From contig JAJEKV010000049.1 in assembly GCA_021234155.1 (NCBI GenBank), forward strand, positions 8,094,036 to 8,158,035: a DNA stretch of 64,000 nt, written 5' to 3'. The position numbers and the translations under genes were made by a program. The stretch comes from Isoetes taiwanensis (lineage: Eukaryota; Streptophyta; Lycopodiopsida; Isoetales; Isoetaceae). The notes under the pieces are model-generated. The model searched no databases. It saw only the letters and a program-made list of their open reading frames with translations, and had not been told where the DNA came from. Positions 3,544-61,922 of this stretch are shown in pieces. The number at the start of each line of letters is the position of its first letter. The stretch's first letter is position 1.

Positions 3544-5579
3544 ATGTTATTGGTTTTGAAAATGTGCAGCCAAAAGTCACAGTTGATCAACAAGATGAAA
3601 GTTGAACCTTCAAAAAGAAGGAAAAGGATAGAAGCAGAAATACTTCAAAAGGAATCAGCAACTGATCTTGAAACTTTTGGACGAGATGACATGAGCAGGA
3701 GTAAAAGGCTCAAGAAAAAAGAAGATGAGATACTCAGCCTATTTGAAATATTAATGCATTTGTATGTTTCTGTCTCTAAATATATATGATGAAGCCATGT
3801 CTTCCCCTGACTGCAAGAAATGGATAAGAGCCATGCAAGAGGAAATGGAATTCTTTAATAGAACCAATACTTATGAGCTTGTTGATATGCCAATTGACAA
3901 GAACATTGCTGGGAACAAATGGCTATTCAAGATAAAAACAGAAGCAGATGGAGTAACACCCAAATTTAAAGCCAAGCTGGTAGCCCAAGGCTTCACTCAG
4001 AGGTATGGCCAAGATTATGAAGAAACCTTCTCTCCCCTTGTAAAAATGAAAAGCATAAGGATGTTACTATCTATTGCAAATGCAGCAAACTTGGAAGTGC
4101 ACCACATGGATATGAACACAGCATTCTTAAATGCAAAGTTGGAAGAAGAAATTTACATAAAATTACCTCCAGGGTTTGAAGAAAGGAAAGGGAAAGTCTG
4201 GAAGTTAAACAAGGCAGTATATGGTCTCAAACAATCTCCAAGGGAATGGTACAAATGTATAGACTCTTATCCCAGGGAACAAGGTTTTATCAAACTGCAG
4301 AATGATGGGAATCTTTACAAATATCAAAGTGGAGATGAATGGTGTATAATAGCACTCTATGTAGATGATAATATAATGGTGTCCAAAGGCATCAATATCC
4401 TAGAGCATTGCAAAAGATTCTGAAAAATAAATTCAAGATGTTTGATCTTGGTGAATTGAAAAAATTCTTGCGAATAGAAGTGCATAGGGATAGAGCAAGT
4501 AAAACCTTGACTGTGATGCTGACTGGGGAGGAGATCTTGACACAAGAAAATCTACCTCAGGCTATTTGACATTTCTAGGGGAAGCTCCAATTGGTTGGAA
4601 ATGCAAAAAACAGAATGCTACAGCAATGCTTCAGCTATATTAACTACCAAGGAATTAACATGGGAAAGAAGGTTATTAATTGAGTTAGGTTACAATCAGG
4701 ATAAAGCCACTGAATTATATTGTGACAGTACAAGCTGCATTGCTATGACAAAAGATCCAGTCTTCCATAAGAGGTCAAAGCATATAGAATTAGAGCTACA
4801 CTTTATCAGGGAAGTGGTTGGAATAAATATAGTTAAGCTGATATATGTAAATACCTCAAGGGAAGTGGTTGGAAAAAAATAAAGGTAAGCTGATATATGT
4901 AAATACCTTAAAGCAGTTGGCAAACCTCCTGACCAAAGCCTTACCAGAAAGTAGGTTTGCAGAGTTAAAGAGTTCAATATAGTGCAAGGATTATAGCATG
5001 AAGGGGGAATTGTAAGGTTGGTCATGTTATAATTATTTCATGCTTAAGTCTAGGGGATAAGATCATGAAGCTAGGGATTGCCTAAGTTTAAAGATCAAGG
5101 GCAAGCAAGATAATGGTTAAAGGGAGCACAAATTATTTATAAAAGTCTATTTCGATGTGGACACCTAATATACATTTGAGGGGAAACTTTATTTCAATTT
5201 CCTGATTAAGCATGCCCAAGAATAGGCCTGGTCGATTGGTTCGCCACAGCGGCCGGATCAAGGCCTATAAAAAACTTTAAGAAGAATTACATTGTAGATC
5301 GGAGTGAATTAATTGTGAATGCAGGTGTCAATGGGCTGATCCGATCAGTGCTTGGGCTTTCGAAATATCAGTCAACCAAGCTACAGTAACTTGGTCAATA
5401 ACATTGCTACAGTGGTATTACTGTAGCAATACAAAGATCTGGAATATTGCTTTAACATTTGAAAATTGTATCCTTGAAGTTGTGAAAAGGTTGTAGAACA
5501 TTACATGATCTATTCAATTTTATCTTTGAATAGACTTTTTTGAATTATTCTCTATAGCTTAAATCTTTCATTCCAGACA
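3544..5579 (+). mobile_element. Ty1/Copia LTR retrotransposon fossil (partial)
   Basis: Plus-strand remnant of a Copia element. Recognisable parts are the reverse transcriptase (about 3790-4420, with KWLFKIKTEADG, KLVAQGFTQ, MDMNTAFLNAKL and LYVDDN), the RNase H end (about 4595-4930, with ELYCDSTSCIAM and HKRSKHIELELHFIRE), a polypurine tract aagggggaa (about 5001-5009) and a 3' LTR. The gag and integrase parts and a 5' LTR were not found. It is broken in several places, and the gene order is the standard one for the family. It looks old, but no age can be estimated without a matching LTR. Confidence 0.9.
5011..5579 (+). repeat. 3' LTR of the Copia fossil
   Basis: Begins with TGTAAGGTTGG directly after the polypurine tract. 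It contains a TATA-like tataaaaaac (about 5267) and probably ends with the CA near 5579. The right boundary is approximate because no second LTR is available for comparison. Confidence 0.6.
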
Positions 5580-7636: not shown

Positions 7637-10600
7637 TCATTTATGTGCAAAAGTGTGGGGAGTGATGAAGGAGGGATCGAGGACGTCATCATGTTCATTT
7701 ATGCCATCCTCATCTCCTTCACTTCTTTCACTGTCACTCGAGGAAGTGCTTGAGTTGTCTTCCTCATCACTATCAACAGATGGTGAAGCATTGCCACCAC
7801 CACTCCCTTTTTCATCCTCTTCCTCGTAATTACAAGCCTTTTAAAGCAAATTAACAGTTTTTTGGCGCAGACGATTGTCTGATTTCAATTTGAAATCATA
7901 GCATAACATAGTCACATCATTCAAGTTCAGCTCATCCCTACAACCCACTTTCTTAGACTTCTTCCCTTTTCCTTGACTTCTTATTTCTAATTCATACCTA
8001 CCTTCAAAATCATTTTCTAAACGTGTCACCAGCCAGTGAATCTTGAGTTTAGTTACTAAGCCTTCCTCCTTGACTGTATCAAGAACTTTTGCTATCCAAA
8101 AGGGTCGACCTTTGTCATCTTCCTCAGTTGGAAGAGCAATCAGCATACCTTTGGCAATTTCTGTGATATTGCCTTCAGGCTCATTCCTACGTCTTGGTCC
8201 AAGTACATGACTCGGTCCTCGTCTTCCTCTGCTGCAGGTGCTATTGTAGCATTGCTAGGACCTGTTTGGTTCTGGGGTTGATGGAAGGTATCAGGCCATT
8301 GAAACGGTTCTTGCAACTGTCTTAGAGCTAGATTTTGCAAGACCTCTTTCTGGTCAAGAAAGAAATTTGTCCACCACAATTGATCTTCTTCTGAGAAGTA
8401 CTTGAAGCCCGAGGAAATGCCATTTTCAATGGCTTTTAAGGATGTCAATGGGGTACTTTTCTTCTGCTTGGACTCCTTAGGATTTTTGAGAGGAAGTTGC
8501 TCTATGAGGCAATGGTCTGGAACAAATTTAAGGAAGTGCAATCCCTCTGCTGAACTCCAATCCTTAGTTGTGGTGTACTTCTTCCTCTGTAAGAAGCTTT
8601 GTCCATCCTTCAAGTAGAACTTGATGTGATGTTGAAAGGTAAGATCATTCAACTTGTTCACAACCAGTTCTCTATCTGAACGTTGAGGAAAAACAAACTC
8701 TCTAAAGTCTGCAGCCTCTTTAAGAAGCTCGACCACTGGAATAGGAGTGTAAGAATCTTCAATGACTCGAACTAAAGTAGGAAGACAAAAAGCTTTCTTC
8801 CTTCTAAGGCGCACAGAAAATCTGCTGAACATCTGGTTAATCTGATCATGGGTGTGCCCTACAAGTAAAAATCCAAGCTTTACTTTTCTGAAGATCCTTA
8901 GCTCCACTAGCATAGCACAATAAGCAAAGAGTGTTTGATTCTTGTTCTCTCTTGTAGTGTTGTCAAGTTGCAAGTAGAGCACAGGTGGTAGTTGCTCTTG
9001 CTCGCACAGGACCTTGTTAAGGATTGTAATTGTCAGGTTTGGGTCACCATGCAAGTTTGGATACGTCAAAAATACTTTGCACTTTAGACTTCCTTTAAAG
9101 ACCATGGCTCCTACAAGGTGAACTTTAACAAAACATTCCTCTGGCACATCTTTTGGAATATTTAGGAAATGGGGTAGAGTTGTCTTTTTTTGATCTATTC
9201 CATCAATTACAATGGACATATATTGCAGTGGACGTTCGACAGCTTTTTTTCTGTGTTTGGCGAGATTTCTTCTCTCAGCTGCTTGTTGTTCACGATGTCT
9301 GGCAAGATTCTGTTGCACAATGTCTGTAAAAGAAATCAGGTTAAAAGTTTTTCTTCAAAGCAAGTGATAGGATGGAGGACATGAGCTTACTTCTTTCGAC
9401 CTCTGTCTTTGCAGTTTCTCGTTGACTTTTCAATTCTGCACATCTCGAGCAAACAGACATTCTATGTCTCCTTGGAATTTTCACAAGGCCAAATTCACTT
9501 TTCCACAGTCTGGTGAAGTGTGAGTAAGAGATGTGCTGAAACTGAATGCATGTCTCTTTGTATTCTTTGAAGACGTCTTTTTTTATAATATTGTCTGTGA
9601 GATGATACATGTTGCTATTAGGCAACTTCTCACATGTCTCTCTAAAATATTTCTCCATCCATGTAACAGCAGCCAGGGCATGCATAGTTACAACTCTTCT
9701 TGGTCCACAATGATCATCAATTGCTGGATTTTTGTCCAGTCTTTTGTGTATTCGAGACATTCTTGTGGACCCTAGACGGTGGACAACCATGAAGCATTTC
9801 TGGCAGACTTGTTCACGGTTAATGTAGTGCAGGAAGGTGTTGCGGTCTGGTCTTACATGATAAGCTAAGTAGGCATTCTGGTTTGCCAATGTCATTGAAC
9901 TGTAGTTGTCTCTAACTGCTCGTAGTTTGGCCATGTTAAATCTGTTGATGCAACCCAATGCACAGCATTTAGTTCTCAGGAGTCTTCTCATTTTGTGTTC
10001 ATCCATAAGGTTTCTTCTTCTTACAGAGGAGCATGCTCTCAAACTAAAATCCACCTTGAATTTCTTTGAAGATTGGCTGGAGAACATGTAATCTCGTTCT
10101 TCCTCGTTGGTGTCATCATCTTCTGATGAAACTTCTACTCTAGGGGTGGCCTCTTCTGTCCTGAGTGGTGTATTTATAGAGGAAAACAGACCACGTGAAG
10201 TTGTTCCCGGAAAAGGCGGTAGTACAGTGTTGAAGGATGGTGATGGCCCATAAGAGGTTGTGGCATCAGCTGTTCTTGTACCATCTTGAAAAGGAGTTCT
10301 TGCAAACATCTCCTTTAGAGCGGACTGGAATTCTGCAAATCCGTGTGTCACAACCGTTGTGTGAAGAGGAGTACATGCTGCAGCATCGTCCTCATTTGTA
10401 GTGAAGTCCTGGTGAGAGAAATTGTAGTGAATATCACAGTCTTCTGTGTTTTCTGTGTTCCTTGTTTGTTTGCACGGAGGAGGCGAAACTACAAGGGGGG
10501 GGGGGTAGCTTGTTCTTGAACACCCCTTCTCGTGGGAGCCGCCTCAGAGGTCCGGGGATGGAAGGAAGGGTGGTGGCAGCATGTTCCGAACTGGTGGTGA

Positions 10601-10843
10601 TGCTTTGGAAGGAGATCCCAGTGTCATGTCTACTGGACTTGGTGACGGTTGGAAGGGTGGTGGAAGTCTGTTACGTGCTGGACTCGGTGTCTCTTCGAGA
10701 AGCAACAACGATGAAGTAGAGGTAGGAGTCGGAGAATGCCGGTCTTCAGAAGATAAGACGTTGTTCCCGAGCGTGTCCTCAGAACTAGACGAGCTTGAGA
10801 CAACGAAAGGTGATGGAAGTTTGTTCACGAAGCGGTTTGTCAT
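7637..10843 (-). CDS. DUF7869-type, transposase-like protein (apparently disrupted)
   Basis: Two main minus-strand exons, 10843-9391 and 9323-7637, flank a 67-nt GT-AG intron whose phases match. Order in the protein: a Ser/Pro-rich N-terminus with repeated LPPPF/LPSPF motifs; an acidic patch; a Cys-containing segment (KCCALGCINRFNM, VCQKC, then VCSRCAEL near 9440), probably zinc-binding; a basic helix-rich stretch across the intron; then the core with SIVIDGIDQ, LQLDNTTRENKN and GHTHDQINQMFSRFS. Those core motifs are typical of the DUF7869 family, found patchily in mosses, lycophytes, oomycetes and cnidarians. The spaced acidic residues suggest an RNase-H/DDE-like fold, which is inference. 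After a frame offset near 8145 comes a BAH/chromo-like GRPFWIAKVLDTV segment and a Ser/Glu-rich acidic tail. In-frame stops at 10544-10546 and 7841-7843 and the offset suggest a recently damaged copy or sequence errors. It is divergent to the methyltransferase gene. Confidence 0.7.
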
Positions 10844-11223
10844 CTTAACAACTGCAAAACAGTGTAGAGATTTGAGAAACTATCTCTACTGCAGAGCTTT
10901 TCCTATTCCCGAATACAAGCCCACCTAGTACAAGTAGTATTTCCTGTAATAATTAAAAGAAAGGCAAACTAAAAGCTATTCCGGAATACACTCGAGCAGA
11001 ACAATAAGGCTAAATGTATTCCACTTCACATAGAATACGAGCAAGACGAAATGGATACCTTTTAAAGGAAATTTTGGCGCCTTCAGTTGCGTATTCCAGT
11101 CTTTGAGCTCAAGTCGCCAGCGCCTCGAATATAATATTTAGAGACTGTATTCCGAACCTCATAGAGAAGACATAGACAGGTAAGCAACAAAGTACAATGT
11201 ACTTTCATTTCTAAGTGTGTTTC
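10844..11223. promoter_or_regulatory. Divergent upstream region with single palindrome sites
   Basis: Non-coding DNA between the minus-strand DUF7869-type gene and the plus-strand methyltransferase gene. An AG acceptor-like TTTTGCAG lies just upstream (minus) of the ATG at 10843, hinting at a 5' UTR intron. Isolated full or half copies of the GTATTCCGGAATAC palindrome occur near 10904, 10977, 11091 and 11147. Confidence 0.45.
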
Positions 11224-11507
11224 TTATTCCGGAATACACTTTCGCCTTCGCGTGAAGGCGAAAGTGTATTCCGGAATACGCTTTGGCTTACGCACTGAGG
11301 AACACTTTGGCTTACGCACTGAGGAAGTGTATTCCGGAATACACTTTGGCCTCCGCACACGAAAGTGTATTCCGGAATACACTTTGGCTTACGCACTGAG
11401 GCCAAAGTGTATTCCGGAATACGCTTTGGCTTACGCACTGAGGCCAAAGTGTATTCCGGAATACACTTCCTCAGTGCGTAAGCCAAAGTGTATTCCGGAA
11501 TACACTT
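11224..11507. repeat. Palindrome array 1: seven GTATTCCGGAATAC copies
   Basis: Seven copies are centred near 11230, 11272, 11335, 11373, 11415, 11457 and 11496; six are full GTATTCCGGAATAC and the first begins TTATTCC. Centre-to-centre distances are 42, 63, 38, 42, 42 and 39 bp; the 63-bp step contains an extra 21-bp spacer copy. The spacer ctttggcttacgcactgagg occurs in both orientations between sites. The array lies upstream of the methyltransferase gene. Confidence 0.95.
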
Positions 11508-11771
11508 TCGTGTCTTTAGGATTTAAAAGAACATTTCTTTCGATTTTTATCGTGAATCTTAGGCATTTTGTCCGCTTTTTAGACTTATTTGGGCCTCTTT
11601 TTTTGTCAATTTTTTTTGTTGTTTTGGCATTTTTGTCCTCTTTTTGTACTCTTTTTGTCATTTGTTTAAGACATTTTGTATTCTGGAATAGTTTTATGCC
11701 AGTGTCTTCTCTAAAAAAGTCGTGTTTGCACACAATGTGTACAGGCAAGAAGGCAGCACCCACAGAGAAGG

Positions 11772-14700
11772 GTTGATGATACTGCTGCGCCTGCGATTTA
11801 CGAGAACTTTCAAACTCAGTGGTTCTTTACAAGGGGTACAACTGGAAAGTACAGCACCATTACTTTCTTACATGTTTGTCGGAGTCCTGGTGCAAAAAGA
11901 TATGATGACAGAGAATTTGTCTGCATGGGCACAATGCAAGCTGTGACTGAAGTAGCTGGGTGTCTGGACAAAGAGGGAGACTGTCATTTCAGACATCCCA
12001 AGGTTTCATTCATGCTGATGAAGCCTTTTTTAGATTGGTCAAGGTAAACCCTCAGGCACTTTACAGGTTTGTTTCTCACTATATCAATAAGAGATCGCTC
12101 AGTGCCATAATCAACGAGGTTCGGAACTCACAAAGCGAAGACTTCCCCCACAGCGAGTCAGAGCAGGGGGAAGAGGAAGAACCAAAGAACCCATCAAGGA
12201 GTCCATCAGGGTCTGCGAGCAGTCCATCCGGGTCGGAAGAGCAGCCACCATGACCACCGCCAAAGAAACAGAGGCAAACTGTAGCTGATAAAGAGCCTAA
12301 AAAAAGGAAAACAGCTTTAATTGCAATAAAAGATGCTGCTGAGGAAGAACCCAAGAAGAAGAAGGGGAAGGACAAAGCACCTGGTGTTGCTATTAAAGAA
12401 AAAAAGGTTGATAAAACATCGGAAAAAATGGAAGAGATTAACCTGCACAAGTTTGTGCAAGGTGTCATTTACTTGCCAGTCACATCAATGAAGCTTCCTC
12501 CCAAAAATGAGGCTGGAGAACGACCACTGCAGGTTCGAAAGATATATGCAGATCATCTAAGGAACCTCAAGGACAGAATTCGGAGCAATCCAAACACCCA
12601 TGTTGCTCCTATTGTTGTTCTTATTGATAGAGAGCAGTGCAAAACACCTGAAGAGTACAATAGAGAAAATGCGGACACTTACACGCATTATGTTTTGGGT
12701 GGGAACCACAGCTTCAAGGCAAGGAGGCAATTGTACAAAGAAAAAAAGAATCCTAGGTACTTGTCTGTCCTCTGCGCAGTCTACTGTGGTTTGACCGACG
12801 AGGAAGCCAAAATCGTTGCCAACACTCACAACACTGACAACGAGTACAAGTTAAAAATGAGCTTTGTCGACAAAATTCGATTTATGCACAGAGAATATAT
12901 CATCTTCAAGGAAAAGTACGGGGAGGATTTAAAAAAGCCACAGTACTCCCTTGAACTTAAAGAAGCTTGGGCCATCGAGTGTTGCCTTAAATACGACGAG
13001 GCGAATAAACGGGCGTCACTCATTGGTCATGACAACTGGTTTCAGCTAGCGTTCAGGGATGGCCGGGTATGTTACAATCGTATTCCAGAATAAGATTTAA
13101 TGTACTACTAGCTTCTGAGTTTCTTATTTTGTGTGCAGATCTGGGAGCTGCAAAACGAAATATTTAATATGTTTGAGCGTGGTGAGCTAAAAAGTAAGGG
13201 CAAGGTCTCGGAGAAGAAGAAAGGCACCGACGTGCCAAAGAAAGAAATGACTATCACTGTCTGGAGGGAGATGCAGGGGTTTACTGACACAGAATTACTA
13301 GAATGGCTTCTGCAGAAGGTGGTGGACAAGGAGTTCACACTTGAAGAAATGTCGAAGGAGTTGCACAAGTAAGCATTACCATTATTGCCTTTTCACTTAT
13401 AGAATTCTACAATTACCTCAGGATAACAGCAACCGTTTACTCCTGAAAATACTGTCTAACTCTCGAGGGATCGAAAGTGTATTCCAAAATACACTTCCGA
13501 TCCTAGCGAAAACGTATTCTGGAATACACACCACAACTTCTTGCGTTGTAGAAGTGTATTCTGGAATACACTTTCGCTCCTTCTCTGCAGTCAAAGTGTA
13601 TTCTGGAATACACTGCTGCAACAACAAAAATGTTGTCTAGGGCACTCGTATTCTAGAATAAGTTTGCGTGGCAGAAAGATAGTTTACTTTACGTTTTCAC
13701 TTTCCAACTGCTAAAACGGTTGTGGTTTTCTTTCAAGCCAAAAAAATATTATCACCTGCCAGACATGTCTGATGGAGCAACTTAACGTGGAGACGTGGGA
13801 GAGGTGCAATGAGCTTTATCCCATAGCTACTTCCGACGAGCGTATTCTTCAGTACGCTCCAAATTTTGAAGGATGGGTACGCTGACTAAACACGTCATAC
13901 TTGACTTGTCTCTGTCTCAATCTCCCCTTTGTTTGCAGAACAAGAAGAAAAATAAGGACCTGCCAGAAGGTTTCATGCACCTCGTGAGACTGGCACGAGA
14001 AGAAAGAACACTGGCAGATAGGAGGACTCTAGAAGTGGAGCCTTCTGATTATGAAAAGTTTAGTTTGTACGACCAAAATAATTTGTTTTCTATTATCCAC
14101 GGGGACTGCACTAAACTGGTTGGAACAGTAACAGGATTTTACACTGGTCATAGCGGACCTTCCTTATGGCTTTAAATTAAAGGACAGCCGTTACGACGAT
14201 CAGCCTTTTAAATTTTTAGAGTTTAACGCTTTCGTCGACGGCATCAAACAAGTCACAACGGCCAAGCACTGGCGTCTCGTCGTGTTTCATTCGAGCATGC
14301 AATCCGGCCTTGTGGAGTCCACGTTCAAAAATCACATCGGATCCCCAGTGCAAGCTGGTTATGAGAATTTGGTTTGGTGAGTACTTTATTCTGGAATACG
14401 TTGGGCTTTCTTCTTCTTTCTGTTTTAGTTTTCTATTCCAGAATATGATTGCCTTTGACTTGTTCTCTTTGTTTATTTTTTGTTCTGTTTTCCTTAGTGA
14501 CACGACTCTAATTTCTACAGGTACAAAACAAATATAAACTACCATGGCGACGGGCCGAGGTTGCTGAGTAAGGTTGAATACCTCGATGTTGCTTACTGGA
14601 GTTTCGATGGCAAACGCACCATGGAGCATTTTAACACAGCAGCATGCCAGAATTTTTCTAATGTTTTGGAATTTCCAGCTGTGCTTCAAAAGCTACAAGA

Positions 14701-15190
14701 CCCTAGTGCACAAGGTAGAATTGTTAATCATTACCAGAAGCCTCAAAAGCTAATCAACCATCTCCTAGACATGTTTTCACGTCCAGGAGATTGGGTTCTT
14801 GATGCCTTCTCTGGCTCTGGTACAACAATAGCTTGTGCACTTAAGAAGGGCCGGAATTGTGTAGCAGTGGACATTGATAAAGAAGCTGTGCAATTCATCA
14901 AGATGAGACTGGCAGCCTTGCCTACCCTACCAGATGAGCACCAAGAGTTAGGCGCCAGATCCTCATCCGATTTTGCCAAGCTGACCTCTTCTGAGATACA
15001 GCCTCCATTCACTAGCTCTTTAGAGGATGAAGCTACTTTTGCAGAGCTGAAAGAAGTGGCACTAGCTACCATTCCTGAAGACACTGCAGAAGTAGACAAG
15101 GGTAAGGCACAAGAAAAGGATCAGACTACAGAATCTGACACAGCAGAAACAAGCAAAAAGAATGATGAAGACTTCGATTTGGACCTTTAG
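11772..15190 (+). CDS. ParB-like domain fused to beta-class amino-DNA methyltransferase
   Basis: Multi-exon gene; the 5' end is unresolved. Coding parts: about 11772-13066, 13139-13368, 13738-13876, 13939-14376 and 14521-15190, with matching GT-AG phases at all four introns (62-369 nt). The N-terminal part (NFQTQWFFTRGTTGKYS) is unknown. It is followed by a Ser/Glu and then Lys-rich linker and a ParB/Srx-like module (VRKIYADHLRNLKDRI, VAPIVVLID, YVLGGNHSFKAR at about 12520-12725). The catalytic half has IIHGDC, then motif IV LVIADLPYG (14144-14170), a target-recognition segment, motif X (HYQKPQKLINHLLD) and motif I DAFSGSGTT (14801-14827). Motif IV before motif I is the beta-class order of N4-cytosine/N6-adenine methyltransferases. 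The C-terminal tail is acidic. An in-frame TGA at 12251-12253 and frame offsets near 12045 and 14138 suggest damage or sequence errors. Plant N4-cytosine methyltransferases are known from Marchantia; whether this is the same family needs a search. Confidence 0.85.
13470..13612. repeat. Palindrome array 2 in a methyltransferase intron
   Basis: Four variants of the same palindrome are centred near 13485, 13520, 13562 and 13604, i.e. spaced 35, 42 and 42 bp. Three have the core CTGG instead of CCGG and the first has CCAA. The array lies wholly inside the 13369-13737 intron. Single copies also occur in introns near 13085 (CCAG core), 13653 (CTAG), 14391 (CTGG) and 14438 (CCAG). Confidence 0.92.
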
Positions 15191-15454: not shown

Positions 15455-16045
15455 ATGATTGGACCCAATCCTCCCTGGGCTACTCCAGAAGGACTGCAAG
15501 CATGCCCCAGGCATTCTGTGCGGCCTGGAATGGATGAGCTATGGGACCATTTCTTAGAGTGGAGGTTGCGCCACAGTCCCACCAAGGAGCTTACAATAGA
15601 GTTGATCAACTTCATTCTGGAGCGATTTGATTGTGGTCATGAGCCACTGAGGGAAATTAATCCATCTGAATGTTATAGGAGACTTGGAATGAGGGGAATG
15701 CTTGAACCCCCTCCTTATCTGGACGAGATGCTACAGCAATTGAGGCCTCTTCTTCGTGCTGGATATTTAGCACACTCTCTGGATGCATACATATCAGAGT
15801 TCATTCATGAAATTTGTAAGGGACACATGTATGGCCTTATTAGGGTGTACTACAACGTGTACAACGGTTTTGTGGAGTTGGGTCCGCTCTTCTTCCGTGA
15901 GTATCATCCTCTGGAATTACTTTTTCTAATGACTAGGTACCCCATATGGTGGGAAGAATCAGGCTGGGATGAGCGTGAGCTCTTGATTCCTAACCCAGAT
16001 GCATGGGTTACACCTCGCAGGGGAAGGGGAAGGGGAAGGGGTTAG
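15455..16045 (+). CDS. Hypothetical protein, about 196 aa
   Basis: The ATG at 15455 (MIGPNPPWATPEGL...) was chosen because upstream sequence in frame is minisatellite. The product is a compact helical-looking protein with an acidic, aromatic-rich middle (LINFILERFDCGHEPL, YLDEMLQQLRPLLRAGY, LIRVYYNVYNGFVELG) and a C-terminal RGRGRGRG tail. It has no stop and reads as genuine coding sequence by its regular mix of residues. It lies 265 bp downstream of the methyltransferase gene on the same strand, between a minisatellite and palindrome array 3, and could be a third member of that locus. I do not recognise the family. The RG tail hints at nucleic-acid binding, but that is inference. Confidence 0.55.
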   Translation: MIGPNPPWATPEGLQACPRHSVRPGMDELWDHFLEWRLRHSPTKELTIELINFILERFDCGHEPLREINPSECYRRLGMRGMLEPPPYLDEMLQQLRPLLRAGYLAHSLDAYISEFIHEICKGHMYGLIRVYYNVYNGFVELGPLFFREYHPLELLFLMTRYPIWWEESGWDERELLIPNPDAWVTPRRGRGRGRG

Positions 16046-16202: not shown

Positions 16203-16550
16203 GGCCCATATTTCGCACCGTAGCCACGGTGCGAAATTGACTTCAGTACAAAATTATTGAAGGGTTTATTTATAACCGCAGCCACGCGGCGTAAATCGAC
16301 CGAAGTTACAAATTATTGAAGTTTTTATTTAACCGCGGGCTACGTGCGTAAATCGATTCGCCATAAATTATTCAAGGGCCTATTTTCGCGATCAGAGCCA
16401 CGGTGCTAAAATCATTCCGATTACAAATTATTGAAGGGCCTATTTCGCACCGTGGCTACGGTGCGAAATACGTGGATCCAGTTTAGTTACAGGCCCATAT
16501 TTCGCACCGTGGCCACGATGCGCAATACATGCATCCAATTTACTTACAAC
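16203..16550. repeat. Array 3: six tandem units of about 58 bp, each with a hairpin
   Basis: Units follow the pattern ggcc(c)atatttcgcaccg, loop, then (c)ggtgcgaaat, followed by an AT-rich tttacaaattattgaa stretch. The first and fifth units have perfect inverted arms of 10-12 bp (ATTTCGCACCGT / ACGGTGCGAAAT type). Units 2-4 and 6 are diverged. The array lies 3' of the orphan ORF and is preceded by a small TTCTCTAATATGTTAATA duplication (16150-16200). Confidence 0.9.
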
Positions 16551-16618: not shown

Positions 16619-19170
16619 TCAGGAGCTCTCAATACGGACATAACCTTTGCCTTGCCTACATCTCATTGATCTCCACTCCCTTGATCGCTCAACAGCTGCG
16701 GACTTATACCAAGCTGCCCTCTTTTTTTCCCGCTGGGTTTTTTGTCTAAACAACTTAGCAAGTGTTGATTCACTCTGGTTCCGTGATTTCTTCACCCACT
16801 TGCACACGATCCTTCTGTAAAACCATTGACACATCTGCTGCAAGGAATTCCCAACCGAACCCTCGTGTTGAGTGAAACGGAAGAATGCATTCTTTGCTTG
16901 CTTATGGGACTTCTCCATTCCCTGTGTATTCCAAATTCCCAGGCTTCCATACTCCCTGACAAACCACACGCCATGTGCGAACAGAATATGGACATAGTGA
17001 GTCAAATTGGCCTCACCCCATGCCGTCAGGAAAGACTTAGTGAAGTTTGTGACTGCCTCCTGGAATTTGGCAACATCATTTTCCTGCACTACCTTTTTTT
17101 GCATTTCCTTTACCAAGTCTGGAGAAATCCTCGCCATGCCTTGATTTTTTCTTCAGCGTGATCCGCCACGATCATTTCGATCATCCTCACCGCAATAAGA
17201 TCCTTGTAAGCTTCCCAAACACCGGATAAGTTTCTCTTCGGCGGGAGGCAAAACCTCTTAGCCTTTGGACCACCCATACTGGGTTTCAGGGGAACCTTGC
17301 CGGATACCTTTGGATCTTGAAGTATTTTGTAGTGCCCACCATGAAGTCCCACATTAGATAGCACCTTTTCAACTTCATGCATGGCAGCTTCCCTAGAGCT
17401 TTGGGGTGATTTATTCCAAGCAAACAGATACTCATGTAAACCATCTTGTCTATGATTCTCAAGAAAGCATGAAGGGTGCATATGTGTACTCTTCTTAATG
17501 GAATTGGCAGAATTGGCATCAAGGTTGTGTCCTTCTCCTCTCTATTTGGTGGCTCATCACGGACACAGTCTAATGTACTCTTGTCCAATCCAAATTGAAT
17601 CTCTTCTTGCATAGAGACAGTAGGGACAAGCATGAGTAGTCTTACCAAGCACCATGCTTCATTCTCGTACATGCATTTTATTGTCTTCAAATCTGCAAAG
17701 AAGATGCCATTCAACCTCGTGACTCACCATATCCGGGGCGCAAGTTTTTCTCCGATTCAAGTGAGAGGCAATCATTGTGGGAATGGGTGTTTGATCAAAA
17801 ACCCACTCGGTACTGAAATAAACCAACCCACCAAATGTGATCTTCATTTGGACGGAAAACTTATCATCTAGATTTGACTCTTCATTCCCCACGTATTCAA
17901 AGCTCTCATTCATTAGACTCAACGAAACCCTCTCAGACTTCTCGCCTTTCACCAATTCCATTTCATCCGACTTCAAAACAATTCTTAGTTTGCCAACAAG
18001 ACTCTTCTACCTTCATATCATAAAATCGAACCAAAAGTGAAGCATTCTAGTTAAGTCTATCCAAAGAATTGTTATTTTCATTAAGGCGTAAAAGTATCAC
18101 CAAACTTCGACTTCTTCTTACCTTTGGTATAGGATGCCAATGTATCCAAGTTGACACTGCTGGTCAGCTGATACATATCACCAAGAAGCTCTTGCACTTG
18201 TCTGTTTCTCGATGACCTACAAGTCATCACGCTTAGTCATCCTTGGTAGTAGAATAGTTTTGGTAATGCCTTGTTGTTTAAAGCCATCCCCGCAAGCATC
18301 CGAACAAAGCAATATAAGCTTGCCTACTTATTCCGACATTGTCACACGTTCTTTAATCGATTCTCGAGGTTTGATTTGTTCCCCAACCCCGCAAGCGGTT
18401 GATGTACTACTGACTTTCCTAAGTTGAATGCTACCGTGAAGCTTTAACATTCTCAATACATCATCTTTAGTAACTAATTTCTTTAATAAACCGGCAATAT
18501 TAGCAGGTTTTCTCTTATTTTCTTATTCTGCAAGATTTGGATCAACAAGCTTTTTAATAGCCATGACCCTTTTTTTTGAGCTTCCACCCCCAGGGGCTAA
18601 TATATTTATGGGCTTCGTGTTTTTTTGCCCTCTCCCCGATCCCCTGGAGTTCTTTTTAAGCGTTTGACCCGTTTGTGAAGGGAATCATTTTCTTTGCGCA
18701 ACCCTCTTCATTCCTGTTTGCGGTGCATTCATCTCGATCACTAATTTTCTGATTTTCTACCTCCAATTCATTGAGCTTGCGGCATTGTTGAGACAGAAAA
18801 GTAGTTCGCCTGTTGGAGCCTGATTAACATCCGATAAAACTTTGCAATTGAATCCATACAAGTGGTTATACATGGCACGCAAATGTGGATCAAGATACCA
18901 TTAACCAAATTATTACAAGAACCTAGTAACCCTTTGCTGTCCCTTACAAGCAAATTCAATAAGACGGATGCAAGAGTGGAAGTTTGGATGGGCTCGAGTG
19001 AAAGGATCACATGGATACAGATTGGCCTTTAGCCCGAGAGGTCTATATTCATGGCTCCGTAAGCTCGCAATGCATCTTCATCTATTGGTTGCTTCCAAGT
19101 GAACTTATTCTGTAAAGGCGGGCATTCTTTTGGCACTTGCACTCTAAATTGACCCCCGGAATTAGTTTGA
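16619..19170 (-). pseudogene. Decayed repeat-family gene, possibly transposase-related
   Basis: The minus strand carries coding-like segments in changing frames. From the 5' side: a coiled-coil-like KLNELEVENQKISDRDE (about 18770), a Lys-rich linker (about 18560), QGITKTILLPRMTKRDD (about 18240), a middle part with HICTLHAFLRIIDKMV (about 17470), then PKVSGKVPLKPSMGGPKAKR (about 17290). The best-preserved block is 17137-16619, with HYVHILFAHGVWFVREYGSL and QGMEKSHKQAKNAFFRFTQH. Such spaced H/E/K-S-H motifs recall proteins repeated in mosses and other seed-free plants, some linked to DNA transposons. I cannot name the family. Several frame changes and stops make it non-functional. Confidence 0.5.
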
Positions 19171-26021: not shown

Positions 26022-29000
26022 TAAGTTGCGGCTTGGACCTTGAGTAGCTGAGATGGAGCACGGCGAGACTAGTGCAAGCGCGCATACTGTAGCGGGACAG
26101 GCGACTCCTATGGAGGAGGAACCTGATGTACGAGGGCTAGCTGCTCGCGTACAGGAAACACAGAAGAATCTGGAGACCTTGCAGACGAAGTGGGGCGAGG
26201 ACTTGCTGGGAGCAGCAGAGCCTCAAGGCTGTATTAGACACTCAGACTGCTATGAGAACTGTATTGGAGACCCTTGCTGGCACGGATGGCCTAGGGAAGT
26301 CTGCAGAGAAGAGGAAGTCTCCGGCAGTTGTGGTGGTGGACCCGGATGTACCTGGTGCTAGTGCTGCTGTGGAGCAGTCACTGAAGAGTTTTGGATTGAG
26401 CAAGGAGGACATCCGGAGTCTCGAGCGCACGAAGATCCCGGATTGGGATGGGAAGGGCACTGCTGGGGAGGCGATGGCTTGGATTGACAAGCTAGAGACT
26501 TCTTTGAGGCTACTAATAAAGGTGATAAGGACCGGTTGTTTATTGCGCATTTGGGCTGAAATCAGACGCCTATAGTTGGTGGAATGGCCCTACTATTAAA
26601 AAAGAGGTGAATACTTGGTCCAATTTCAGGAAATGCTTTATTGGAGAGTATGCACCTCAGCAAGATGCTCGTGATGCGCTTGAGAAGCTGCGGTACTGTA
26701 AGCAGACAGGTTCTCTTAGTGCTTATATCAATAAGGTACGGGGTTATATCCACAGGGTTGGAGACTATCCGAGGCTTGGTAGGTTGATTCTTCCTAGGTG
26801 GTCTATCCAGTGTTGCTCTCAAGAAGCTGATAATCGGGTTGAAGCCCGAAGATTTTGAGAGGGCAACGATGTTGGCTCGTCAGCTTGGGGAAGAGGATGA
26901 GTTCTTTAAGAGGACGTCTCGAAAGTTCTCGAAGAAGAAAAACAGGTTTTTCAAGAAGAAAAGTCTGAGCAGCCTAAGCCTAAGTCTGCAGGTGGAGAGT
27001 CCAAGAAGCGTAAGGCAGACTCTAAGTTCGGTGGTCCCAGGAAGGGGATTTTCTGTTATAGGTGTGGGGAGCCTGGGCACATTAGTCGTGAATGCTCTCA
27101 GCCACATAACAAAAAAGCTGATAACAAGAAAGCAAACGTGACTGAAAAGGCTGAAGAAGTATTAGAATCTAAGACGGTTTCAGCCATTGCCATGGAAGAG
27201 CTATGCGCGCTGGATAAGCCCGCAAGCAAGGACACCATGGACATGTTTGTTGGACGGGTGATTAGATTCTTGGGCAGAAGGGCCAAAACATTGTTGTGTT
27301 AATGGATTGTGGCTCTTCTGACATGTTTATATCTTCCAAGTTGGTGGAAGAACTGCATCTACCTTGTGTAAAGACTAATAAGTACAATGTAGATGGGCCT
27401 TTTGTGAACGATTCTCAGGTGGAGGATCGTAAAGCTGTTGGCGTGCCCATTGGGTATTCAAGGCTACCAGGAAAAGCTTGACTTTGACCTCTTAGATGTT
27501 GGCCCGGTTAAGCCTACTGCAATAGATTGGAACACTCACCAGGTGACGCTGAAGCGCAATGGAGTCCTTTGACGGGAGCTTCCAAGATCGTGTCGTCGCT
27601 TTAGGTCAAGAAACTGGTACGTAAATCTTCCAATCAACGTTTTCTTCTATTTATTGATGAATGTTATCCTGCTTTTGAGTGTTGTCATATGAGTGCTGAT
27701 AGTGAGGTCATAGAGAATTCAAAAGGCCAGAGAGAGTTGCAGGATCTGTTGAATGAATTTTAGGACGTGTTCCCTGAGGAGCTGCCTGAAGGTCTTCGAC
27801 CTAGTCGAGAGATTGAACATGAGATTGATTTAGAGCCTGGATCCAAACCTGTATTTCGTAGCCCGTATAGATTGTCCATATTGGAATAAGAGGAGATAAA
27901 GAAGCAGGTTCATGAGCTGTTAGCCAAAGGATTTATAAGACCTAGCAAATCCCCTTATGGTGCTCCTGTCATTCTAGTCAAGAAAAAGGACGGATCAATG
28001 CGGATGTGCATTGATTATCGTGCCTTGAATAAGGTCACGATCAAGAATAGGTACCCGTTGCCTAGGATTGACGAGATTATGGATAGATTAATAGGAGCTA
28101 AATACTTTTCTAAGTTGGATTTGCGCAGTGGTTATCACCAGATAAGAATGAAGGAGTCAGATCTACATAAGACTGCCTTCAGGACCACCTTTGGTCATTT
28201 TAATTTTTCGGTGATGTCCTTTGGACTAACGAATGCTCCTGCTACTTTTTCCAGAATGATGAATGAGGTTTTTGCAGGACATCTTGATACTTTTGTTGAA
28301 ACATTTTTGCAGGACATCTTGATACTTTTGTTGAAACATTTTTAGGTGATATCCTGGTGTATAGCAAAACCTTAGAGGAGCATTTGAATCATTTGGAAAA
28401 TACTGTTTGCAGGACTATTCAAATAGACTCAAGGCACGTGCTAACTCTGCTCAGACAGCATAAGTTATATGCAAAGATGTCAAAGTGTGAATTTTAAAAG
28501 CACAGGTGGAATATTTGGGCCACATTGTATCTGCGGAAGGTGTAGAAGTAGACCCCAAGAAGACGGAGGCAATTCAGTCTTGACCTGTGCCAAAGAATGT
28601 ATCTGAGTTGCGTAGTTTCTTGGGGTTGGCCAGTTAATATCGTAGATTTGTCTGGAAATTTGCCAAGATTCAGCTGCTTTGACTATGTTGTTGAAAACTC
28701 AGATGTCCAATGGCAATGAACGGCGAAGCAGTAGCAGGCAAGAAAGCAATATTGTCCACGGACAACGTAATTGCTCCAGCGACAATACCCCTAGCCCTTA
28801 GCTCTGAGGTAACTCCTGAGGCGATTCTAGACACTCGCATTTGGAAGCTGTGCAATAGAGATATTGCAGAGTACTTGATCTTGTGGCGAGGTCAATCACT
28901 CTCCGAGGCCACATGGGAGAGTGAAGAGTACGTGCAGCAAAACCCTCATTTAACTCAAAATTCGTGGAGGCCACGGAAAGATTAGATGAGTCAACGTGAG

Positions 29001-34864: not shown

Positions 34865-37452
34865 TTAGAGGAGTTCTTTGCATACAATATTTGTTGTATA
34901 TCTTGATCTGTCGACATCTGTAGAAGCATCTTCATTCGATTGAATAAGTACCTTTATGCCTTGGATTCCTTGAGCTTTTGAGAGTGCCACATAGAGTTGT
35001 CCGTGAGTAAACACTGGATTTGGCAAATACAAACTAATCGTTTGCATTGTTTGGCCCTGGGACTTGTTGATTGTTATACCAAAAGATGGACGCAATGGAA
35101 ATTGCATGCGCTCAAACTGGAATGGGAGTTCTGCATTATTAGGCACCAAAGGAATTCGAAATATGAACACTCTGCTTCCAATATTTTTTCCAGTGACAAT
35201 CTCAGCATCTATAGCACGTCTTCCCAATGCACATATAATGAGACGGGTGCCATTGTATAGTCCCTTATGTGTAGAAACAGACCTCATTAACATCACAATC
35301 ATGCCAACCTTCAATGTCAAATGATGTGGAGGCATCCCACTCGAAGTTTGCGCATTCGAAAATTCAGTAGGACGGACCCTTGCATCATTGTCATCAACAG
35401 CTCGATCATCACTGTAATTGTCGATGGGTGCAGCAGGCAATCACTCTGTCATCCTCTTGTTTACTTCGTCTACATCTTCATTTAGTGGCGTAAGGATTGC
35501 CCTTTGCATCCAGTAGGACACACTTGTATAATTTGTTGAAATGTTGGGAAATGGCACAGCTAGCAAGTCATTTAAGTCCTGTGACTTGACACAAATCTCT
35601 TCCGAAAGACGTATTACGTCCGATTCAATATTGGAGAACGTGGTTTCAAGTCCACCTCCAACTCGTAGGAGATAGTCAGCAAATGCCTTTTGCTCTTCTG
35701 CATCTCTTCCCATATTGTTCATTACTCGCATGTTTATGTTGAGCTTATGTTCCTCGACATCATCCCATATGTAAGAGTACTTCAAGGAAGCATGCACACT
35801 TTGGGGTCGATTTTCTCGTGGAACCACAGGTGGAAGCTGGTGAAAATCTCCTCCCAAAACATCAATCTGTCCCCTAAAAAATTTGTCACATGACATCACG
35901 TCATGAAGCATTCTATCCAGTGCTTCATAGACATGTTTATGCATCATTGGGGCCTCATCCCATATAATCATGCGAGTCGCTCTTATCGATTTTTCCAACT
36001 CGGACTGCTTTGGAATATTGCAAGTTGATGTCTTATTTATGTTTATTGGTATCTTGAATCTTGAATGTGCAGTGCGTCCACCCTTCAATAGAGTAGACGC
36101 AATTCCTGAAGAAGCAACAGCATGTGCAATGATACCTTTGGCACGAACAGAGGACAACATGGTATTAAAAAGGAAACTCTTTCCCGAGCCGCCTGCACCA
36201 TGAACAAAAAACACTTTTTCTTTTTCCAATATCACGTGTTCATTGATCACACGGTAAAAAATAACACGTTGATCATTATATAGGCAGTCAACATCTCCTT
36301 GTACCTCTACCATATCTTCCTGAAAGACCTCATCTCAAAATATCATATATGGATCTATTGCACGCTCGGGAAGAATGAACTCAAACTCCCTCAAAGATCG
36401 TCCGACAGAATTCATATGATCTTCAATGTCGAGAAGTGCCATGCCAAGTATCCGATCACACACTTGCACACTTTGATCCTCTGCAACCCTTCGAGCCTCA
36501 TGCAAGAAGTCATCGACCATAGAAAGCTTTACTTCTTCCCACAGTTGTAGCGGATTCGATGGCTCACAATTTAGAAGGATCATGGCGAACATGTGCCGCA
36601 ATTGTGGCGGCATACCCCATGTTGTTGCTTCCTGAAGAGACTGGAGCTATTCTATGTCATCTCGAAGCAACCCACAATGAATGCAAGCTTCTTTATATGT
36701 TGCACACAACTCTGCTTTCCTTCTGAAGGATTAACAAAGTACATGCGTCCAATCGTGGAAAACTTCTAGTTGTTGGATCTCTTCTTCCATATTCTATTGG
36801 GTTTATCATAGGTAAACTTTTTAAGAAAATCATGATAGAGCAATTGAGTAGCCTCTCTATCTCTAGATGCATTCATCTCAAAAAAAGCTGTCAATATTGT
36901 CGCATTATTCTTATTTCTTATAGTGTCCATGCTCACCTTCCGATAGTATACATCTTGTTGCATTGGGAGATGCATAGCCAATCTAGTGACATGAGGAAAC
37001 TGTTCTTGTATTTCATAAGAGAGAACTCTCCATGATGCCTCAGAAGATGAGTAGCGTGCATTCAAGAATTGCTCAACCACATCATGGTTTATAGTAGATG
37101 CACCATCACTCGCTGCTTCTAAGTTCACATTGATCATATCTGGCCCTTTGTAGACATATTTGTACAAATATTTAATGGCCTTAACAGCAGCACATACCTC
37201 AACATTGATATGGCACTTGAAATACGATGTCAGCCATGGATTATATGGCGCAACCCATCTGTTGTCTAAATTTATATCCCTTTTTTTCACCTTTTGGCCA
37301 TCATCCCTTCTTCGGTACAATGGATATCCATCAACAACTGTTGTCTCATCTGAAAATGCACGTGGATAACGTTTTGTACACTTACCACCCTGCATGCACC
37401 TATAAGGAGTGAATGGAACCAACCTTTTCAGTCGGTTCACTAAACTGTACAA
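34865..37452 (-). CDS. Helitron Rep/helicase C-terminal part (PIF1-like helicase, disrupted)
   Basis: The N-terminal side (37452-36766) is the region after the HUH nuclease: CMQGGKCTKRYPRAF, GYPLYRRRDDG, NPWLTSYFKCHINVE and IKYLYKYVYKGPD. Then come IGRMYFVNPSEG and, after a frame change and an internal loss, YKEACIHCGLLRDD and LRHMFAMILLNCEPSNPLQL. The helicase (36313-34865) has Walker A HGAGGSGKSFLFN, Walker B IIWDEAPMM, LGGDFHQLPPVV, and the late motifs FGITINKSQGQTM and HGQLYVALSKAQ, as in PIF1/Helitron helicases. One in-frame TGA separates the two helicase ORFs at about 35441. The gene is therefore dead as it stands but recently so, since most frames are long. Confidence 0.88.
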
Positions 37453-37499
37453 GGAAACAACAGCATTAGCAAAAGAATATATCTATTGTAATCAATTGT

Positions 37500-40143: not shown

Positions 40144-40307
40144 TAGCTAGATGAAGAATTCGTGATCGGAATTCAAGCAGAGAAGGCAGGGGCGGGATAG
40201 TGAACGAGAGGCAAATCAAGAAAGAATTTGGGAAAGAATTTCAAAATCCGATAATTGCAGGTTCAGAGTAGTGGATAGCCATTAATCATGGCAGTTACTA
40301 GCTGGTC

Positions 40308-42361
40308 ATGATGACAGTTATTCCAAAAATGTGCATTCGGTACATATATATATGTACAAAAAGGGCTACATTTATAGACACCCTTTCATGCTTTTACCCT
40401 CAAGATTATGTCTTTGCAACAGAAGACTTCATCTCTGAACCTCAAAACTTTGAGGAAGCAATTAAGAGTTCACAGTCTGAACAATGGCTAAAGGCTATGC
40501 ATGAAGAATTGAGCTCAATTGCTCAAGCAGGAACTTGGTCATTGACTGCTAGACCTACAGACAGGGCTGTTGTAGGGTCTAGATGGATTTTCAAAATTAA
40601 GTACAATTCTAATAGAGATATTGACAGATTTAAAGCTCGCCTAGTGGCTAGAGGTTTCACTCAAATCCCTGGTGTGGATTTTGACAGAACATTTGCTCCA
40701 CTGATAAGAATGACTACCATTCGAACTCTGCTGGAACATGCTTGTCTTCGACACTATTATATTCACCAAGTTGATGTTACTAATGCTTTTCTACATGGAG
40801 AATTATAGGAAGAAGTTTACATAGAACAACCTGAAGGGTTTGTACAAGGAGAAGGATTAGTCTGCAAACTTCACAAGGCATTGTACAGTCTGAGACAAGC
40901 TCCAAGAACATGGTATTTGAAGCTAAATCATACTCTTTTAAGCTTAAACTTTCAAGTTAGTGCTGCAAATCCTAGTCTATATTTTAGACTTGTTCCAGAT
41001 CCTATCTATATCCTATGCTATGTTGATGACCTTGTCATTATTGCTGCAAAAAAGTCTGATCTAAATGATCTGAAACATCAACTGCACCTGCATTTTAGAA
41101 TGCGCGATTTAGGACCAATTCATCATTTTTTTGGCCTCCAAATCCTCTATAACCAAGCCATGGGAACTTTGCACCTTCACCAAGAAAAATATTTCACTGA
41201 TCTTCTTCATAGGCTTTGTCTGCTCAATTGCAATTCCATCTCTACACCTCTTGAATTTGGAATATTTCTGTCATCTAATGATCCTGATTGTCTATCTCAT
41301 TTCACCTTTCTTCAAGAAAACTATAGAAGCATCATTGGGACTCTAAACTTTGCAGCAGTCTCAACTAGACCAGACTTGGCCTTGCCTATTTCAAAGCTTA
41401 GTCAATTTTGCAATGATCCCAAGAACACTCACTGTGCAGCACTAAAAAGATGCTTGAGATACATTTCTGGAAGTTTAAAACTTAGAATTAGCTACCATGC
41501 CACAGGGAACTCAAGAGCTTCTGGATACTCAGATTCTGATTAGGGAGGTGCAGCTGACAGAAAATCAACCACAGGGTATACTTTCATTTTAGCAGATGGT
41601 GCTATCAGTTGGAATAGTGTAAAGCAGAGTTGTGTGGCCCAATCAACAACTGAGGCAGAATATTATGCAATAGCAAGTGCCTTCAATGAAGGACTTTGGT
41701 TGCAGCGACTTCTCATGGAATTCTAGATACACACTGATCAAGAAATGATTATCAGGGTAGATAATCAAAGTGCTATCCAGATTGCTCATGACCCGGTTTT
41801 TCACAAAAGAATGAAACATGTTGACATAAAAGTGCACTTTATCAGAGATATCTTGGCCAAAAGATTATTGGAGATTGAATACTGTCCAAGTGGAGAAATG
41901 ATTGCTGACATCATGACAAAGGCACTTGGTGCTCCAAAAGTCTCAAAATTTGTGCAGGCACTTGGTCTGCATGACTACTCGACTTGATCATCACTTGTTT
42001 TCTGATGTGAACCGTTTTTCATATTCTGCTGTATTTTTGAAGTTATTTCTGTTTTCAAAGCTGCTTAATTTTAGAAGGGGATGTTGGAATAGTTGCTAAA
42101 ATTAAGTATGCTTATTATTAGAAAATGTTTAAGCATTGGAGCTAATTGGGGGCCAGAAGTTGAGCCAGAAGTTAAGGCTTATGTTCAGCCAAAACTTATG
42201 ACATTTCATGTATTGAAACTGTTGAGAAGATGAATGAAATACACGGTTGCGGTGCTTGAGCAATATCATCTGTTTTGCTATCATTGTTATCCTTGTTGTC
42301 ATTGTTATTCTGTTCAAAAGGTTTGATCTCTTTTTTGTTATAATCTGTTAATATTCTAACA
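40308..42361 (+). mobile_element. Ty1/Copia LTR retrotransposon fossil (3' half)
   Basis: Parts: reverse transcriptase (about 40440-41180, with SRWIFKIKYNSNRD, ARLVARGFTQIPG, VDVTNAFLHGEL and LCYVDDLVII), RNase H (about 41530-41990, with DNQSAIQIAHDPVFH and KHVDIKVHFIRD), polypurine tract agaaggggat, and a 3' LTR (42082-42361). Gag, protease, integrase and a 5' LTR were not found. It is broken at a few points. The long frames suggest it is younger than the Copia copy at 3.5-5.6 kb. Confidence 0.92.
42082..42361 (+). repeat. 3' LTR of the second Copia fossil
   Basis: It runs from TGTTGGAATA to TATTCTAACA, giving TG...CA ends with near-perfect 10-bp inverted tips. Length 280 bp. Confidence 0.85.
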
Positions 42362-61400: not shown

Positions 61401-61690
61401 TGCCTCCATTCGCCGAGGTGCCCACCATCTTCGCATCGAGGCGAGGCGGTGGATTGGGGAGCCCGCCGGGGCGAGCTCTGTCAGTCTTTGTCAAGCGGGT
61501 GCCATTGAGGATGAGTCTCACACTTTCGAGTTGCCGGTGTTGGTCGGTCCGGGCGGATCGGCTCCCTTAATGCGGCGGACGTGCCCTTGCATTTCTTTGA
61601 TGAACTGCCGTCGATGCGTGCCACGGGGTCATACATCGAGAGTACCGGACTGCGAGTCACATTTGCCCCGCTTTTTGTCCGTGACTAGGC
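58430..61690 (+). pseudogene. LINE ORF2 region: endonuclease and reverse transcriptase (decayed)
   Basis: In order: an EEP endonuclease start (VSWNCRGFSW at about 58460), a LLGDFNADG-like segment (about 58885), reverse-transcriptase block 1/2 (SGVVPIHKP, NYRTIMVDSII at about 59970-60070), a palm-end FDLVPG (about 60255), YKYLGVEFP (about 60735), and a C-terminal region with VVTMGDARLPFGLLVAMSQR (about 61083) and FFDELPSM. No YADD was clearly read. Many stops and frame changes are present. Confidence 0.7.
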
Positions 61691-61892
61691 ACTACTGGGG
61701 GTGGTGCATATTTTGTATCTATTGGGATGTTTACGCATTTTATATGATTAGCCGCGGTTTGTCGGCCGGTGATTCTTTGCCCGCGGTTTTCCCTCGAAAA
61801 CCCCGGGGTGGGGTTTTTAATCAGGGCGGTAAAAAACTTGGCTGCGTTTTTGTATTGAGTCCCATAGACCGATTGGTCTCCGTGGACGATAA

Positions 61893-61922
61893 AAGTACCT
61901 TCCTTCCTTCCTTCCTTCCTTC
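61893..61922 (+). repeat. (CTTC)n tail of the plus-strand LINE
   Basis: Six or so TTCC repeats close the LINE. The mirror GGAA repeats lie at 62499-62527, where the opposite copy ends. Confidence 0.95.

Follow-up and report, generated by a model that had tools for sequence, protein, structure and literature searches.

The 64-kb stretch of contig JAJEKV010000049.1 analysed here (hereafter, the window) encompasses a spliced gene (12254-15190, forward strand) that encodes a beta-class N6/N4 amino-methyltransferase with a ParB-like domain ahead of it, and a family of palindromes, TATTC-NN-GAATA, that is confined to the non-coding parts of this gene and its divergent neighbor, a gene for a DUF7869 protein. 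The ParB-methyltransferase gene is a damaged copy and probably part of a mobile element. We give an even chance to the complete scenario, under which this copy derives from an accessory gene carried by a eukaryotic DNA transposon, and the product of that gene would methylate DNA under the guidance of the palindromes. Proteins of this kind are already known as transposon accessories; what is new is the palindrome family, which can be tested directly and offers a specific site for bench work.

The initial annotation, made from the sequence alone, described a spliced gene that combines a ParB-like module with a methyltransferase, and this observation is confirmed. The gene consists of five exons separated by four GT-AG introns of 72, 369, 62 and 144 bases, with consistent phases (see the table for the coordinates). 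When independent plant proteins are aligned with the gene, the exon 1/2 join is gap-free in P0001 (Gb_37443) and P0003 (Gb_10123), and the exon 4/5 join is gap-free in P0001, for which the BLASTP match spans residues 444 to 746; together with P0002 (Gb_17912), these entries carry a prefix that probably denotes Ginkgo biloba, although a Ginkgo paper examined for names of this type contained none. Given that the BLASTP alignments of plant proteins cross these two joins, the open frames have not come to lie in a row by chance. The exon 2/3 and 3/4 joins are drawn from splice sites and phase alone.

The present copy is probably not an intact host gene. Position 11772, at which the span originally assigned to the gene (11772 to 15190) begins, is not established as the start, and the breaks in the reading frame had gone unstated. 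The frame is interrupted near 12003, by a TGA in phase at 12251-12253 and again, immediately ahead of motif IV of the methyltransferase, between 14130 and 14132. The part of the gene upstream of exon 1 (11715-12253) is probably coding, with no BLASTP similarity to P0003 found for it. An intron at 14130/14132 was considered and rejected: no more than a few bases are shifted there, and a BLASTP alignment to P0001 crosses the break. Being bridged by homology, this break is a lesion or a sequence error.

The methyltransferase part (METHYLTRANSFERASE) matches Pfam N6_N4_Mtase (PF01555) at 3.3e-17 and PHROG 67, 'DNA methyltransferase', at 2.2e-26 (residues 366-717). Among solved structures, a three-row profile matched 11 sequences, headed by CcrM (7.7e-11), MboIIA and RsrI, with the entries named DNA cytosine-N4 methyltransferase ranking last (0.012-0.013). 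In the CcrM alignment, DLPYG lies opposite DPPYN and DAFSGSGTT opposite DPFFGVGTT; the QKP...GDWVLD stretch sits between motif IV and motif I, and motif IV precedes motifs X and I within a single domain, which is the beta-class order originally read from the sequence. At the level of the fold, membership in the beta class is not in doubt. The protein shares the motif order and a domain-wide alignment with the CcrM-type beta-class adenine methyltransferases and differs from them in motif IV (DLPYG rather than DPPY) and in the presence of the ParB-like N-terminal part. Because of this kinship with adenine enzymes, the predicted activity favors N6-adenine over N4-cytosine as the product. A place among the N4-cytosine methyltransferases is not supported, such structures matching far more weakly than CcrM. 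Marchantia DN4MT and bdelloid N4CMT are eukaryotic amino-methyltransferases (compare the abstract of PMC8885841); a placement of the window gene with either of them is not supported, in comparisons that leave the DN4MT and N4CMT sequences themselves outside.

The domain encoded by exon 1 is likely, though not proven, to be ParB-like, judging by several profile comparisons. From 12428 onwards, exon 1 matched a single NCBIfam family, TIGR03764 ParB (9.1e-5, residues 42-179), scoring 22.2 bits where the curated cut-off is 143.75; being so far under the cut-off, the match indicates a relative rather than a member of that equivalog. When the ParB exon was compared by tblastn with 72,556 plasmid records, five matched at E <= 10 and all five were annotated as ParB family protein, none of the matches being significant individually. 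A profile of the plant domain, built from the window sequence and two Ginkgo-type rows (hhalign kept two of the three), aligned with three of these five plasmid ParBs over 111 columns at E 2.8e-5 and probability 74, a value favored by the choice of the plasmid ParBs from the query's own matches. For comparison, phage ParBs aligned with the same three plasmid proteins at E 1.1e-4 and probability 56, and a methyltransferase control gave 0.19. The plasmid ParB region past the second conserved box aligns only loosely with the plant domain. The Ginkgo-type ParB piece matched PHROG 1033, 'ParB-like partition protein', at 0.058 and had no match in NCBIfam, and PF20188 (DUF6551) matched all three plant members weakly, at best 0.019. 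The ParB-like module proposed upstream of the methyltransferase in the same gene is supported by its sequence (GGNHSFKARRQL in exon 1, TIGR03764 and the hhalign result) and not by structure.

With up to two mismatches allowed, TATTCCGGAATA occurs at 18 sites in the window, all of them within 10904-14445, whereas 100 shuffles gave 2.44 sites on average and never more than 6. The arms are exact at 17 of the sites; among palindromes of this form the runner-up, which is a run of A, has 3. The sites are distributed between the intergenic space and introns 1, 2 and 4, with none of the 18 in the coding sequence as modelled. Relaxing the search to three mismatches raises the number in the window to 55 sites, of which 20 lie in 10880-15190, where the two extra sites have three mismatches and one of these is exonic; the 35 sites outside this region all have exactly three. 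The palindromes were also considered as a dispersed satellite, which is rejected within the window, there being no exact-arm sites elsewhere in the 64 kb. The arms stay exact and the center varies, which is the look of a bound site; the pattern search favors exact arms, but it would also show the three-mismatch forms, which are nearly absent (2 of 20). The center is CCGG in 8 of the 10 intergenic sites and in none of the 8 intron sites (Fisher p 0.001, noticed after the fact), and CTGG or CCAG in 6 of the 8 intron sites. Decay of methylated CpG in the introns is a possible source of this difference.

It is very improbable, in our estimate, that the locus is simply a dead relic in which the palindromes are leftovers of a 42-bp tandem array. 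The array with its 42-bp period and the frame breaks in both genes fit such a relic, as do the similar flanks of 8 of the 17 exact-arm sites, but the other 9 fall in flank groups of their own. At a 60% threshold, the flanks form ten groups (one of eight sites and nine singles), so that tandem duplication accounts for part of the array and not for the isolated sites, although some of the singles resemble the array in part of one flank. The separate flank groups, along with the scarcity of three-mismatch forms, imply that the decay is recent or that the breaks are sequence errors. A relic, moreover, would concern this copy and not the family.

ParB proteins recognize palindromic parS sites. The co-occurrence of a ParB-like domain and a methyltransferase with a promoter region and introns that contain by far the most frequent short palindrome among the forms counted in the window suggests self-targeted methylation, with TATTC-NN-GAATA as a candidate parS-like site for the ParB-methyltransferase protein. 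The ParB-like part would recognize the palindromes in the way ParB recognizes parS and would bring the methyltransferase to the element's own DNA; the N6-adenine (or N4-cytosine) marks could then act on the shared promoter of the element, in autoregulation, anti-silencing or control of transposition, with the DUF7869 protein as the putative transposase. That this is a land-plant transposon with parS-like self-marking of its own, in which the ParB-methyltransferase reads the palindromes of the promoter and introns and methylates the element, we propose tentatively, the chances being somewhat against it.

The chief rival, which we regard as unlikely on balance, retains the transposon gene and holds that the palindromes are bound by the DUF7869 protein, as a transposase or the partner of one, or by a host factor, such as heat-shock factor, with the methyltransferase acting elsewhere. 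Transposases commonly bind repeated sites near the ends of their elements, which counts for the DUF7869 protein, and 10 of the 18 sites are in the promoter region common to the DUF7869 gene; nevertheless, sites are found in three introns of the methyltransferase gene and in neither the DUF7869 gene nor its intron. For heat-shock factor, the inner TTCNNGAA (TTCnnGAA) matches the core of the heat-shock element, but the outer TA...TA is as invariant in the 18 sites as the inner TTC...GAA, beyond what a heat-shock element needs, an invariance that the limit of two mismatches in the search restricts without forcing it.

Palindrome-guided methylation by a transposon accessory protein faces several contrary observations. 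DUF7869 is not named in the literature searched and has no stated function in the sources consulted, and terminal inverted repeats bounding the gene pair were found neither by an inverted-repeat search nor among the 25 of 141 pairs listed in another. Motif IV is canonically (D/N/S)PP(Y/F) in the beta class; each of the four plant versions in which the region is present has another residue in place of its first proline (DLPYG here, DIPHG in P0001, DISQG in P0002 and DAPYG in P0006, with P0003 lacking the region), and this non-canonical state makes the activity uncertain. P0006, a protein of Adiantum nelumboides (L7F22_048967), has no Pfam methyltransferase match and, like P0002, fails to align with the ParB boxes, the failure of P0006 being the one that counts here. 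The window gene does not match Pfam ParB_N (PF02195), tblastn of the ParB exon against phages returned four chance-level records with no ParB among them, the plant profile did not match five phage ParB sequences (E 0.044, probability 1.2), and a helix-turn-helix for reading the palindrome was not identified. The AlphaFold models are poor, with a mean predicted local distance difference test (pLDDT) score of 50 from three rows and 35 from seven, and Foldseek with the first model gave 153 matches at E <= 10, the best at 0.79, of which the 50 listed include no ParB; the structural comparison envisaged in the initial annotation thus favors neither side as to the domain's identity.

The DUF7869 gene, with a DUF7869 match of 5.2e-51, stands head to head with the ParB-methyltransferase gene, and its product is a candidate for the transposase of the same element; the best match among solved structures has E 0.56. 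This gene is damaged as well: apart from an in-frame TGA, its likely C-terminal continuation (7844-8254) is in another frame, suggesting a break there. The gene pair is surrounded by remains of transposons, namely reverse transcriptases of the Copia and Gypsy types together with a PIF1 helicase; here and below, the Copia-type, Gypsy-type and Helitron designations are our presumptive assignments from the protein families.

A fusion of this kind is already published. In the relevant passages of PMC12477816 (2025), Sola1-1_Ec32 of Ectocarpus carries a ParB plus DNA methyltransferase accessory protein on the strand opposite the transposase; these passages cite green and red algal cases (Iyer 2011, Petroll 2025) and suggest that a transposon is bound and modified by the protein of this type that it carries, naming no site. 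As in Sola1-1_Ec32 in the description given there, a ParB-like part and an N4-cytosine/N6-adenine methyltransferase are joined here in one protein that is encoded opposite a possible transposase. Unlike in that case, the present host is probably a land plant, the neighbor is a DUF7869 gene rather than a demonstrated Sola1 transposase gene, a palindrome family is described (none is mentioned in the corresponding section of PMC12477816), and the ends of the element were not found. Among the titles and beginnings of abstracts listed, with most subscription papers outside the search, there was no ParB-methyltransferase fusion from a land plant, which is weak evidence that none has been described. 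The window gene points to the existence of this kind of protein in vascular plants and to a possible source for the recruitment of host writers. DNA amino-methylation is disputed in vascular plants, and its enzymes have rarely been identified.

The relatives of the gene were sought by several routes. When the ParB part by itself served as the query (residues 58-450 of the joined reading), none of 4677 candidate proteins was retained. The methyltransferase region retained 5 of 776, namely the three Gb_ entries, which are eukaryotic, and two other methyltransferases, and a profile search retained 2 of 7997, the protein of the fern Adiantum nelumboides and P0007, which comes from a metagenome and combines a ParB-like part with a methyltransferase. 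Two of the probable Ginkgo proteins, P0001 and P0003, contain both domains, have a conserved tail behind the methyltransferase and are, respectively, 40% and 38% identical to the window gene; the ParB domain of P0001 is missing its start, and motif IV is absent from P0003. These relatives make a vascular plant the likely host. The Adiantum protein matches the later part of the window gene only, its BLASTP alignment running across the exon 1/2 join, and both it and P0002 may be incomplete gene models. The identity to P0003 is 95% for P0001 and 88% for P0002, and three such near-identical relatives are as expected of a repeat family.

These comparisons bear on the possibility that this is a host gene of phage or bacterial origin, acquired horizontally and retained as an epigenetic writer, close to what the initial annotation had proposed; we consider this quite unlikely. 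The introns and the two plant relatives with both domains are compatible with it, as is the domain order, ParB-like and then beta-class methyltransferase, that the window gene shares with P0007 and with P0008 from Methanoculleus virus L4768. The BLASTP matches to these two proteins at 1e-3 cover only 53 and 66 residues in the vicinity of motif I, and in P0007 the Pfam ParB_N match is itself weak (0.027). Against a host gene, scans of contigs with the plant profile confirmed a relative in none of 106 viral and none of 292 prokaryote stretches, and none of the 536 phage records matched by P0001 covers 80% of it; the 15 phage matches listed all start at residue 328 or later, past the ParB boxes. 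A viral contig scan with P0001 retained 2 of 305 stretches, the one locus with listed open reading frames (ORFs), L009, having a methyltransferase ORF by its motifs, and a scan with P0007 retained 3 of 5. The frame breaks and the stop in this copy, the near-identical relatives in one set, the DUF7869 gene lying head to head, the surrounding transposon remains and the published carriage of the domain pair by a transposon of Ectocarpus (PMC12477816) also speak against a distinct writer of the host.

Table. Coordinates of the gene pair and of the palindrome sites in the window
Feature	Coordinates	Strand	Remarks
Divergent DUF7869 gene	7844..10843	-	One 67-bp GT-AG intron, 9324-9390; TGA 10544-10546
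Intergenic space with palindromes	10880..11714	.	10 of 18 sites, several in an array with a 42-bp period; between the two divergent genes
Probable N-terminal coding part	11715..12253	+	Two frames; break near 12003, TGA 12251-12253
Exon 1, basic linker and ParB-like domain	12254..13066	+	GGNHSFKARRQL at 12698-12733; second conserved box HNTDNEYKLKMSFVDKI from 12827
Exon 2	13139..13368	+	BLASTP alignments of P0001, P0003 and P0006 cross the exon 1/2 join
Exon 3	13738..13876	+	Little or no counterpart in P0001 and P0003
Exon 4, start of the methyltransferase	13939..14376	+	Motif IV (DLPYG, 14156-14170), preceded by the frame break at 14130/14132
Exon 5, remaining methyltransferase, conserved tail and stop	14521..15190	+	Motif I DAFSGSGTT at 14801-14827
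Introns 1-4	13067-13138, 13369-13737, 13877-13938, 14377-14520	+	GT-AG, phases in agreement
Intron palindrome sites (within 13067..14520)	13081; 13480, 13515, 13557, 13599, 13649; 14387, 14434	.	8 of 18 sites; introns 1, 2 and 4, none in intron 3

Directly 3' of the methyltransferase gene, an intact ORF from ATG to stop (15455-16045, forward strand) has no clear Pfam family and is possibly a further gene of the same element. It is followed on the reverse strand by overlapping ORFs that resemble exons of another gene (16622-18006); three of these were scanned without a convincing Pfam match, the best being IML1 at 0.0013, under the cut-off. Between the forward ORF and this reverse group lies a second palindrome family, approximately TATTTCGCACCGTGGCYACGGTGCGAAATA, at 16209-16237, 16441-16470 and 16498-16527.

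The reverse transcriptase remains are located on the forward strand at 3755-4420, 40302-41540 (in which 40302-40805 was seen as an ORF only) and 27890-28342, with matches to PF07727 (Copia-type) and PF00078 (Gypsy-type). The PIF1-type helicase, of the kind carried by Helitrons, occupies two ORFs on the reverse strand (34868-36334; 1.3e-70, and 1.7e-13 for the 2B domain), near an ORF at 36769-37482 that has no Pfam match. Toward the end of the window, where the guanine-cytosine (GC) fraction is 0.56-0.60 across 56-62 kb, a GC-rich stretch contains an inverted repeat (60569-61922 and 62503-63897) with arms of about 1.4 kb that are 82% identical.

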